The translations under genes were made by a program, and so were the position numbers. Shown one piece after another: positions 4,313-57,778 of a stretch of 64,000 nt of DNA (within the stretch, counting starts at the first letter, position 1; each line of letters opens with the position of its first letter). This DNA comes from Halapricum salinum (GTDB taxonomy: Archaea > Halobacteriota > Halobacteria > Halobacteriales > Haloarculaceae): the NCBI RefSeq assembly GCF_004799665.1, contig NZ_CP031310.1, forward strand, positions 2,286,887 to 2,350,886, written 5' to 3'. Under the pieces are notes generated by a model. That model was not told where the DNA came from. It saw only the letters and a program-made list of their open reading frames with translations, and searched no databases.

Positions 4313-4426
4313 ATGGACGAACCGGAGCCACATCCAGACGATCATCTGGACGACCTCGAAGACGGCGCAGGGTGTACCGAAATCTGGGAGACGCTGAGTG
4401 AGCAGCGCGAAGCCGGTGCGGACTGA
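4313..4426 (+). CDS. Small acidic protein of 37 residues
   Basis: The frame begins MDEPEPHPDDHLDDLEDGAG and continues CTEIWETLSEQREAGAD before TGA. It is very acidic, uses normal codons for this genome, and carries one Cys. It diverges from trmB with a shared 133-bp intergenic region and has a TATA-like box about 30 bases upstream, so it is probably leaderless. I recall similar short haloarchaeal proteins with the phrase DGAGCxEIWExLSE, but cannot confirm this here. No function is known. The last base of its TGA is the first base of the 82-bp palindromic element. Confidence 0.65.
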   Translation: MDEPEPHPDDHLDDLEDGAGCTEIWETLSEQREAGAD

Positions 4427-4507
4427 TAGTGATTACTGTAGCGATTTACCACTACGACCGCCCGACTCCGGGCGGTCGATGTGGAACAGACCGACAGTAA
4501 TCACTAT
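4426..4507. repeat. 82-bp palindromic element, copy A
   Basis: The element has a perfect 14-bp terminal inverted repeat (ATAGTGATTACTGT / ACAGTAATCACTAT), an inner stem CCAC...GTGG and a perfect 9-bp apical stem GACCGCCCG / CGGGCGGTC with a 4-base loop. Two 9-base internal loops (AGCGATTTA and AACAGACCG) and a TA/AT bulge are unpaired. A second copy of exactly the same length lies at 55052-55133, with the loops identical and three stem pairs changed in a compensatory way. It begins at the last base of a stop codon. The 137 bases that follow, to 4644, hold no other feature I can identify except the promoter region of the next gene. Confidence 0.85.
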
Positions 4508-4644
4508 GAGCGCCCCTCCGGTCTGGACTCGCGTCAACCCCACACGGTCTCTGCCGAGCGGCAGGCCCACGCGACAGCCACGAGCTGTTAGATATCGATC
4601 ACGTGGTCGACACACCTATTCTCTCGGCCGTGGTATAGGGCCTC

Positions 4645-24227: not shown

Positions 24228-24442
24228 CGGAACCGCGCCTGTAGATTGAACAGGTAGTCTCTTTGCAACGAAGCCGGAAACACTTGTAGGTATCTCTCGC
24301 CGTTTTAATATCAGGAAACATGTAGCTTCAGGTAATATTATGCGGTAGCCTGTCACAACCTTTCACATCGTCGGTCGCCCGTCGGACGGGTGGCCGGAGG
24401 GAGCACACATGGGATCCACCTATTTGACAGGAAGTGCCTGAG
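24228..24442 (+). promoter_or_regulatory. Upstream region of the giant-gene operon
   Basis: These 215 bases hold no gene. Two AT-rich TATA-like stretches are visible, TTTTAATA (24303-24310) and TAATATTA (24333-24340), both about 100 or more bases before the start, so the transcript probably has a leader. In that leader a short hairpin CCCGTC / GACGGG lies at 24378-24390. A ten-codon frame (24409-24441) ends just before the ATG and might be a leader peptide, without further support. Confidence 0.4.
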
Positions 24443-54797: not shown

Positions 54798-55052
54798 ATG
54801 AAGAACCTCATCGTCAACGGCGACCCCGGGAAGCTCCGCAAGGGCGCTGTCATCGAGTACGACGGTCAGGAGTACGTCTGTTTCTCGGTCAAGCGCCAGG
54901 GCGACTGGCACGGTCCCGACCGCCCGCAGCTGTGGTGTACGGTCGGTCAGGAGGACGAGCGCGAGACCTACGAGCGCCGTCAGTACATCCCGATGCACCT
55001 CGACACGCTCTCTGCGGACGCAGACGCCGTCACCGTCGTCGAGGCAGCCTGA
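54798..55052 (+). CDS. HAH_0734 family protein
   Basis: This 84-residue protein (MKNLIVNGDPGKLRKGAVIE, GQEYVCFSVKRQGDWHGPDR, ERRQYIPMHLDTLSADADAV) matches the small haloarchaeal HAH_0734 family from memory. The fold is beta-rich and the function is unknown. It diverges from the L44e operon across 145 bases. The last base of its TGA stop is the first base of palindromic copy B. Confidence 0.85.
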   Translation: MKNLIVNGDPGKLRKGAVIEYDGQEYVCFSVKRQGDWHGPDRPQLWCTVGQEDERETYERRQYIPMHLDTLSADADAVTVVEAA

Positions 55053-55133
55053 TAGTGATTATTGTAGCGATTTACCGGTACGACCGCCTGCAGTCGGGTA
55101 GTCGATCCGGAACAGACCGACAATAATCACTCT
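55052..55133. repeat. 82-bp palindromic element, copy B
   Basis: The element has the same length and fold as copy A (4426-4507). The 14-bp outer stem has one end mismatch (ATAGTGATTATTGT / ACAATAATCACTCT), the inner stem is CCGG / CCGG, and the apical stem GACCGCCTG / CGGGTAGTC has one mismatch and two pairs that are G-U in RNA. The two 9-base internal loops are identical to copy A. It starts at the last base of a stop codon and lies in the gap to the convergent DUF2298 gene. Confidence 0.85.
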
Positions 55134-55147
55134 GACTTCTCGCCTGC

Positions 55148-57778
55148 TTACTCGTCGAGTGCGCCCTGGTCGACGCGGTAGATCGTCACCAGCGGCCACT
55201 CCTTCTCGACCGAGACGACCGACAGACGATCGACCGTTATCGGTCGATACTCCGACCGTTCGTTCGGTCCGACGTAGATCAACTCCACGTCGTATTTCGC
55301 CAGCAATCGTCGCTGCTCGGCTGGCTCGCCAGTGAACATCGCCCGCACGTCTCTGAGCCGCTGCTCGTACACGTCAGGACCGCGGTAGGCCCGTTCCGGC
55401 AGCTTGCCCAGAACTGTCGGCACCCCAGTGAGACTCGCTGGCCCGTTGTACCAGCGGTACTGTGGGCCCGGATCGCTGAGCATGTTCGGCTGGCCCTCGA
55501 CCTCGCTGTCGAGCCAGTAGACTGCCGCCGCCTCCACGTTGTGATCACGCTCGACGAACGCCAGCGCGTCCAGCGTCGGATCGGCGATCCGCTCGGTATC
55601 GGTACTGAACGTATCCACCGGCTCTTCGGGTGTGTACGCCACGGCGATCCCGAACGAGCCGTACAGTCCCGCGCCGACGACGAGCAGCCCGACCGCCAGC
55701 GTCAGCCCCACGCGCTGGCTCTCGTCGATCACTGCTCGTCGTTCAGCAAGACGGTCGAGCGCGATCGTCGCGAGACTCCAGACGATCGCGAGAACGAGTA
55801 CGAATCCCGCGAGTGCCGACCACGCTGGAATCGCCGCGAGTGCGTCGATCGAGGGCGACCCGGCGATGTCGCCGGTCAGACCGAAGTGGACTGTGAGTGC
55901 GAGCATCCCATAGAGCGAGACGGCGACCATCAACGCGACTCCGAGGGCAGCGAGTGCCCGCCTGCCGAGGTCGCCCGAGAGATCGAGTGCGGATTGGCGT
56001 TCTTCCAGGAGTCGGACCAGTATCACGCCCGCAGCGACGCCCGCGAGGATCCACACCTGCATGTAGACCTTGAAGACGGTGTTGAACCGGCCGCCTGCGC
56101 CCGGCTCGACCACGTAGACGAACTCCACGAGGACGATCAGTCCGGTGAGCGCGACCAGCAGCACCGTCTCGAACCCCGGCTGTGGTGGGCTCTCACCGTC
56201 CTCGTCAGTGCGCCACGGGATCACCGTTCGACCGAACACGGAGACGGGGCCGGAGCGACGCAGCAGTATCCATCCGCCCAGGAGTATCGGGAGGAACAAC
56301 CCGACTGCGGGCACAGTGAGCACAGTCGTCACGGCCACGAGCGTCGTCGCTGCTACGGCGACGGTGACTGCTTCGGGCAGTCTGTAGTGACTGTGGCGAT
56401 AGAGGTACAGACCGTACAGCAGGAGGAACGCCCCGTGAGTGAGGAGCAACTCGGCGAGTGTGCTCCGGCCCGGGAACGCGCCCGGAGAGGTGTTCGCGCT
56501 GCTGGATTCGAACAGCCAGTACGGCGAGGACAGCACCCACGCGATCGCGAGGACGATCACGCCGACGACGACGGCGACGCCGAGTCGCTTGCCTTCGCGT
56601 TCGAGCCACGAGTCGATCGTTCGGTCGGTCGCTCTCTCTCCTCGAAGCAGTGCCAGTGGGTTCGTGGGACCGAGCGCCAGCGTCAACACGACCAGCCCGC
56701 CGACGGCCGGGAACGACCACGTGTTGACGACGGCGACGACGGCCCCCAGCGCCGGGAGGACACCGAACAGCGTGCCCAGTGTACGCGTTCGTGAGCGACC
56801 CGTCCCGGCGACGAACACCTGCAGGAGGATCGTCGCGACGACCAGCAGGAAGGGCGTACTCATCATGTGGGCGTGCAGATCGCCGTTGAGCCACGCAAAG
56901 AGGGGGAACTCGGTGATCGCGTTGTCGATGACGCGACTGGCCGACCAGTAGCTAAATTCCGAGATCGAACTCGCGATTCCCCGGTCGCGCGGGAGCGGGA
57001 AGAAGAGCCCCGCGACCCAGTTCCAGCCCGCCGCCAGATAGCCGAGCGGCGCACCGAGTAGGCCAAATTCTCCCGCGGCGTGTTCGAGGATGGCTCCGCC
57101 GAAGCGGAACGACGTCTGGAGGTTGCTGGCGACGCCGACGAAGAACGCGCTGGCGAGACCGGCGCGGTGGGCCGAGAAGCCGCGGTGGGCCGCGATCGAT
57201 CTCGCGAGACCGTAGGCCGCGGTGACGAGCATGGCGTAGTAGCCCGCCAGCGCGAGGTTGTATGCGAAGCGCCCTTCTGTGCCCGTGATCCGGGCGAGCA
57301 GCGACGCCAGCAGGTGGCCGCCGTAGTAGTAGCGGACGCTCTCGCCCGCGAACCATGCGTCCTCGGGCGGGACGGTGGTTCCGCGAAGCGAGGACTGCAG
57401 CAGGCTCATGTCGAGGAACTTCTCGCCGGCGAGTGGCATCGCGGCGGGATCGACGGCTCGGACCGCGATGAGAAAGCAGAACGCCACACTGAACACCAGT
57501 GCGACGCGGACGTAGGCCGCGTGGTCGATGTCGTACCCGCGATACCACAGCGTTGCCGCGAGAGCGCCCAGAACGAGGAGGCCGACCCAGAGCGCGAGTG
57601 TGATCGAGACCCGACCGAGGAAGAAGACGACGAGCCAGACGAGCGCGAGTGCGAGCGGGAGGGCGACCCCGGCTCCCAGGTCGTCGAGGTCCGGAAGCAG
57701 CGCGTGGGCGAGTGGCATCCCGACGTAGAGCAGCACCAGGTACGTAAGCAGCCAGAGGGCCACCAGCCCGTATTCCAT
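55148..57778 (-). CDS. DUF2298 multi-pass membrane protein
   Basis: This 876-residue protein has many transmembrane helices and the DUF2298 (Chlor_Arch_YYY) hallmark near residues 115-160: EKFLDMSLLQSSLRGTTVPP followed by DAWFAGESVRYYYGGHLLAS. The C-terminal soluble part contains VYWLDSEVEGQPNMLSDPG and LLAKYDVELIYVGPNERS. Members of the family are predicted membrane glycosyltransferase-like enzymes of unproven function. The gene is convergent with the HAH_0734 gene. Confidence 0.85.
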   Translation of the reverse strand: MEYGLVALWLLTYLVLLYVGMPLAHALLPDLDDLGAGVALPLALALVWLVVFFLGRVSITLALWVGLLVLGALAATLWYRGYDIDHAAYVRVALVFSVAFCFLIAVRAVDPAAMPLAGEKFLDMSLLQSSLRGTTVPPEDAWFAGESVRYYYGGHLLASLLARITGTEGRFAYNLALAGYYAMLVTAAYGLARSIAAHRGFSAHRAGLASAFFVGVASNLQTSFRFGGAILEHAAGEFGLLGAPLGYLAAGWNWVAGLFFPLPRDRGIASSISEFSYWSASRVIDNAITEFPLFAWLNGDLHAHMMSTPFLLVVATILLQVFVAGTGRSRTRTLGTLFGVLPALGAVVAVVNTWSFPAVGGLVVLTLALGPTNPLALLRGERATDRTIDSWLEREGKRLGVAVVVGVIVLAIAWVLSSPYWLFESSSANTSPGAFPGRSTLAELLLTHGAFLLLYGLYLYRHSHYRLPEAVTVAVAATTLVAVTTVLTVPAVGLFLPILLGGWILLRRSGPVSVFGRTVIPWRTDEDGESPPQPGFETVLLVALTGLIVLVEFVYVVEPGAGGRFNTVFKVYMQVWILAGVAAGVILVRLLEERQSALDLSGDLGRRALAALGVALMVAVSLYGMLALTVHFGLTGDIAGSPSIDALAAIPAWSALAGFVLVLAIVWSLATIALDRLAERRAVIDESQRVGLTLAVGLLVVGAGLYGSFGIAVAYTPEEPVDTFSTDTERIADPTLDALAFVERDHNVEAAAVYWLDSEVEGQPNMLSDPGPQYRWYNGPASLTGVPTVLGKLPERAYRGPDVYEQRLRDVRAMFTGEPAEQRRLLAKYDVELIYVGPNERSEYRPITVDRLSVVSVEKEWPLVTIYRVDQGALDE

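Follow-up and report, generated by a model that had tools for sequence, protein, structure and literature searches.

An 80-bp imperfect palindrome of haloarchaea, very probably a non-autonomous MITE-like mobile DNA element

RESULTS

Two related palindromes at stop codons

The window, a 64,000-nucleotide stretch of the Halapricum salinum genome analysed here as a whole, holds two copies of an imperfect palindrome, copy A at the end of a 37-aa ORF and copy B at the end of a DUF7098 gene (Table 1). Between them, at 24434–48974, lies a series of very large ORFs, all on the forward strand (1306, 1327, 1182, 3572 and 737 aa). An earlier note, made from the letters of this DNA alone, had described the palindrome as an 82-bp unit. 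Compared as 82-mers the two copies share 68 of 82 bases and differ at positions 11, 26, 27, 38, 40–43, 48, 49, 56, 57, 72 and 81, and the compensatory pairs that the note reported (11–72, 26–57 and 27–56), the four apical differences, the two changes giving G-U (38–45 and 35–48) and the unchanged internal loops were all reproduced; changes at 34–49 and 2–81, beyond those in the note, break pairs. The palindrome itself therefore stands, but its boundaries do not: neighbouring copies put the outermost bases of the 82-mer in a direct repeat, so that the true unit is an 80-bp element, TAGTGATTACTGTAG...CTACAGTAATCACTA, with a TGA triplet on either side, and bases 1 and 82 belong to the TGA/TGA target-site duplication. 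The left TGA of copy A is the stop codon of the 37-codon gene, as the note had placed it. Folding z-scores are −10.9 for copy A and −4.8 for copy B, with none of 200 shuffles as good, and both strands of the palindromes fold much better than shuffled sequence. The outer stem of copy A has a single mismatch, A14/G67 in element numbering.

Table 1. Features of copies A and B and their flanking genes (window coordinates)
Feature	Position	Strand	Remarks
37-aa ORF (MDEPEPHPDD..)	4313..4426	+	ends at copy A; moderate coding score; no match in a Pfam search
Left target-site duplication TGA, copy A	4424..4426	+	stop codon of the 37-aa ORF
Copy A, 80-bp element	4427..4506	+	covariance model 106 bits, E 6e-24
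Left terminal inverted repeat, 15 bp	4427..4441	+	outer stem with 4492–4506
Left internal loop CGATTTA	4442..4448	+	unpaired, conserved
Inner stem, 5' side	4449..4464	+	paired blocks 4449–4452 and 4455–4464
Apical loop	4465..4468	+	variable; reverse-complement form in some lineages
Inner stem, 3' side	4469..4484	+	paired blocks 4469–4478 and 4481–4484
Right internal loop AACAGAC	4485..4491	+	
Right terminal inverted repeat	4492..4506	+	
Right target-site duplication TGA, copy A	4507..4509	+	
DUF7098 (PF23384) gene, 84 aa	54798..55052	+	stop codon is the insertion target
Left target-site duplication TGA, copy B	55050..55052	+	stop codon of the DUF7098 gene
Copy B, 80-bp element	55053..55132	+	covariance model 89 bits; terminal A to C
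Right target-site duplication TGA, copy B	55133..55135	+	
DUF2298 membrane protein gene	55148..57778	-	convergent, downstream of copy B

A family found within one order

A 22-base pattern with up to three mismatches has 29 occurrences in the complete H. salinum genome (3.45 Mb), and its reversed control has none. The covariance-model search proposed in the earlier note, run with a model built from 27 copies, raises this to about 50 distinct copies in the same genome and, among 392 genomes from the order, finds a match in 166, belonging to 49 of 95 genera (E ≤ 0.01, at which about four genomes are expected by chance); nearly all of the matches listed across the order are exactly 80 nt. In a phylum-wide sample 18 of 295 genomes were positive, all 18 from this same order. 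An Rfam scan of the window returned tRNA only, leaving the 80-bp family unmatched above the gathering score. Searches of viral contigs and phages found no copy, while a plasmid search gave a single match (79%) in Haloarcula sp. GH36; plasmid PL47 carries no such element.

Target, duplication and size classes

The flanking duplications, which the note had also suggested looking for, are present and are 3 bp long. They are perfect (TGA/TGA, TCA/TCA or TAA/TAA) at 19 of 29 copies in H. salinum, and in other genomes the flanks match at 24 of 27 elements. The MAG Halobacteriales archaeon QH_10_67_22 (QH_10) contains a burst of 87 distinct copies, 86 of them exactly 80 bp and 26 identical to the consensus, flanked by TCA/TCA in 42 cases, TGA/TGA in 34 and TAA/TAA in two (78 perfect TSA/TAA duplications), with one discordant TGA/TCA. 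The matched triplet varies among identical elements and is therefore part of the target. The preferred target is GACTSA(G)/CTSAG, its consensus being GACTSA with a weaker GTC on the other side, and insertion occurs in both orientations, TCA and TGA being nearly equal. The element is multicopy, has no coding capacity and ends in terminal inverted repeats of about 15 bp that start with TA, the outer stem being 93–96% paired.

Elements of a sister subfamily (TAGTAGCCATTGAAA..) likewise measure 80 bp and have TA on either side, most of them at CTAG. Near-identical copies of this subfamily are found in H. salinum at 1010147–1010226, 1498358–1498437 and 1748773–1748852 (L105, L108 and L106). A size scan for TSA duplications and inverted ends starting with TA gives 80, 107, 108 and 109 bp, as well as an extended form of 128 bp and composites formed by nesting, and several unrelated end sequences share the TSA target. 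At least two further families, of 107 bp (TACGGTCGTGCGTAA..) and 108–109 bp (TACTGTCGGACACAA..), occur in QH_10 (L118–L183) and duplicate TSA just as the 80-bp family does. One hairpin is of half size, 40 bp (L012:1499–1538); it is flanked by a TCA duplication and seems to consist of the left arm doubled back upon itself.

Empty sites and nested insertions

Insertion can be followed to the base where one element has entered another. A copy of the TA subfamily lies inside a main-family 80-bp copy (L004/L030) and adds 80 bp plus TA, and in G357 a 108-bp element inside another 108-bp element adds 108 bp plus TGA, both exact to the base. The near-identical TA-subfamily copies and the nested copy are evidence of recent activity in the H. 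salinum genome. Two apparent 2.3-kb elements (L030 and L031) were rejected as pairs of separate insertions. A one-ended copy in L131, considered as a larger transposon, was rejected too, being truncated and next to an RNase H-like gene.

At one stop-codon locus in the genus of G177 (g3, putatively of the Haloarcula group) the site is filled in G177, G131 and G083, the element of G083 lying in the opposite orientation to the other two; G394 has a member of another subfamily there, and the site is empty in nine to ten related species (G162 GACTGAGGCTTACCA against GACTGA-[80]-TGACGTTACCA when filled). Occupation of one gene's stop codon in related species (L257–L259 and L272), in opposite orientation or by another subfamily, reflects either repeated insertion or in-place inversion. 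Copy B is likewise absent at the orthologous place in five congeners of H. salinum, and at six sites of this genome the element is absent from congeners; their spacers have diverged too far to show an empty site exact to the base, which the Haloarcula-group locus does show.

The suggestion in the earlier note of a mobile unit mobilised in trans thus receives strong support from the 3-bp duplications, the empty orthologous sites, the nested insertions, the bursts of identical copies and the lack of coding capacity.

Placement at stop codons

Genes were called from codon usage; by these calls, 15 of the 49 H. salinum copies and 43 of the 98 QH_10 elements (31–44%) lie exactly on a stop codon, and no QH_10 copy lies wholly within a called gene. 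Among non-coding-or-stop sites, stops make up 11–13% of TSA, 29–30% of CTSAG and 36% of GACTSA. Target preference and purifying selection against gene disruption therefore largely account for the stop-codon association: stop codons are frequent sites mainly because the favoured core is TGA and a stop that receives an element remains intact, although a modest excess beyond target preference may remain. At one decayed copy (L031:823–902), the last A and the TG of the right duplication form the ATG of a lipoprotein-like gene.

Pairing of the arms

Across a set of 36 diverse copies, pairing holds in 93.7% of cells and two-sided changes occur at 26 of the 29 pairs; doubly changed cells number 186 against 53 in shuffled and 19–36 in slid controls. 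Two-sided changes are found at 13 of 29 pairs within H. salinum. Arm sequences are wholly different between subfamilies with the pairing kept, and the 7 × 7 internal loop stays unpaired with its bases conserved. The earlier note had argued for selection on a folded RNA or single-stranded DNA. These two-sided changes uphold that view for single-stranded or cruciform DNA but not for RNA, as G-T and A-C mismatches in the stems are balanced (39 against 41 in H. salinum, 17 against 17 in the burst, with a mild bias of 28 against 17 across genera), which indicates a constraint on DNA rather than RNA.

The note had also raised a 3'-UTR RNA element. A functional RNA hairpin of this kind, kept by selection at the ends of genes as a terminator, stabiliser or regulator, would fit the stable fold, the strong covariation and the share of copies exactly at stop codons, and the probably orthologous G177 and G131 copies, nearly unchanged where the whole stretch is 94% identical, give a weak hint of constraint. 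We nevertheless consider it highly improbable: G-U is no commoner than A-C in H. salinum or the burst, both orientations occur with TCA and TGA nearly equal, the stop-codon share is largely what the target motif predicts, there is no Rfam match, copy B is missing from the five congeners, and target duplications are needless for an RNA element.

Random stem substitutions, which the note had held to count against selection, are seen only in young post-insertion copies; stem changes in the QH_10 burst comprise 63 singles and 3 paired doubles, and lineages across genomes keep their pairs. As fresh copies decay at random, the covariation between lineages reflects selection on still-mobile copies, or slow events, and not correction at each jump. 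Homogenisation of the arms by templated repair (quasi-palindrome correction) could produce matched arms in place of selection, and apical loops do seem to flip to their reverse complement; however, the scarcity of matched doubles in the burst means that such correction is not fast, and correction never reaches the asymmetric internal loops, making this explanation quite unlikely. The apical tetraloops of QH_10 and other copies form apparent reverse-complement pairs (ACTG/CAGT and ATTG/CAAT), which suggests flipping of the inner stem.

Candidate mobilisers

No transposase-bearing element with matching ends was found in pattern scans of H. salinum or of the burst genomes, nor in 66 MAG loci, about 240 kb of G357 contigs and 115 kb of G289 contigs. 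IS5-type transposases were rejected: the burst genomes contain neither PF13586 nor PF13359, both IS5/Harbinger-type families, and none of the PF01609 genes fetched from G289, G357 and QH_10 has matching ends.

A REPIN/PATE-like single-stranded hairpin moved by an IS200/IS605-type HUH (Y1) transposase would be consistent with a hairpin bearing conserved unpaired loops, with a target consensus that is stronger on one side (GAC-TGA) and with the Y1_Tnp gene in seven of ten tested genomes. To our knowledge, IS200/IS605 Y1 transposases make no target duplication, whereas the flanks here covary as TGA/TGA, TCA/TCA and TAA/TAA; moreover the H. salinum genome (99.98% complete) has no Y1_Tnp despite its near-identical TA-subfamily copies and nested insertion. 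HUH/Y1 mobilisation was rejected on the TAA/TAA and TTA-type matched flanks together with this missing gene, and we rate it as highly improbable.

DISCUSSION

The 80-bp imperfect palindrome is very probably a non-autonomous, MITE-like mobile DNA element, confined as far as searched to one haloarchaeal order. The observations establish its mobility, its 3-bp (or 2-bp) duplication, its target, its two orientations, its fixed length and a constraint on pairing. We propose that a DDE-type transposase would act in trans, making a staggered cut at the target that would then be joined to the element ends. Pairing of the arms may be kept because a source copy has to fold into a cruciform or hairpin that holds the ends of this very short DNA next to each other; alternatively, both ends might have to bind the same enzyme.

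Ordinary MITE biology gives no account of the fixed 80-bp length, and unrelated inverted repeats with a common target and size class in one genome are unusual if each needs its own transposase. Both points bear on another mechanism, in which a structure-specific host enzyme that is not an IS transposase moves the cruciform or hairpin DNA, reads paired or folded ends rather than sequence and makes the 3-bp TSA duplication. Because such an enzyme reads paired ends, unrelated arms of fixed lengths (80 and 107–109 bp) could share one target, as is seen within one genome, and the mechanism is also in keeping with the pairing kept across genera, the fixed length and the failure to find a matching transposon. 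However, the transposase search extended to three Pfam families and to part of the sequence only, the common first bases (TA, G/C, G/T, G) and the conserved TTTACC/GTTCC loops imply some sequence recognition, and the 107–109-bp members pair reliably only over their ends. We therefore regard a structure-specific enzyme as unlikely, though worth keeping in mind.

Among known transposons, MITEs of the IS5 superfamily (the IS427 and IS1031 groups and eukaryotic Tourist/Harbinger) use CTAG/CTNAG-type targets with 2- or 3-bp TA/TNA duplications. Their ends begin with G, whereas the 80-bp family begins with TA and its burst genomes lack PF13586 and PF13359.

The bacterial MITE-like repeats RUP (107 bp), Correia/NEMIS (107/155 bp) and ERIC resemble the 80-bp family in being short and non-coding, with terminal inverted repeats, TA termini, duplications and long hairpins, and NEMIS also falls into discrete size classes (PMC2229807). 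Unlike RUP, Correia and ERIC, the 80-bp family is archaeal, duplicates a 3-bp TSA, is exactly 80 bp across genera and has unrelated yet paired arms; RUP has a partner in IS630-Spn1, whereas no partner IS was found here. Closer in host are the SMRs of Haloquadratum walsbyi (three SMR-A of about 110 bp and SMR-B, HqIRS41, of 80 bp), whose mobilisation was called ‘enigmatic’ and which are likewise haloarchaeal with inverted termini and no related transposon, the sizes here being 80 and 107–109 bp; by their published description, however, they lack target duplications, which the 80-bp family has, and SMR-A is inserted into IS605/PATE palindromes (PMC3119063). REPIN/RAYT and the IS605-derived PATE are also short, intergenic palindromic hairpins mobilised in trans (PMC3116915; PMC3119063), and GTAG REPs also supply stop codons (PMC3733652). 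REPIN/RAYT and PATE make no target duplication, in contrast to the duplicated TSA of the 80-bp family, whose H. salinum host has no Y1_Tnp. The open-access literature yielded no account of the 80-bp family, the nearest being the Haloquadratum SMRs; the family, present in about half of the sampled haloarchaeal genera, appears not to have been described before.

Defined boundaries, target and duplication open these repeats to annotation and to studies of polymorphic insertions and of effects on the host. How small haloarchaeal repeats are mobilised, a matter called ‘enigmatic’, becomes a testable question: which enzyme cuts CTSAG, and why are the elements exactly 80 (or 107–109) bp? The covariation of the arms provides a natural data set on cruciform or hairpin DNA as a transposition intermediate. 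If a structure-guided host enzyme were indeed responsible, this would be duplication-making transposition outside the known transposase classes, placing fixed-length hairpins across the haloarchaea, often at stop codons.
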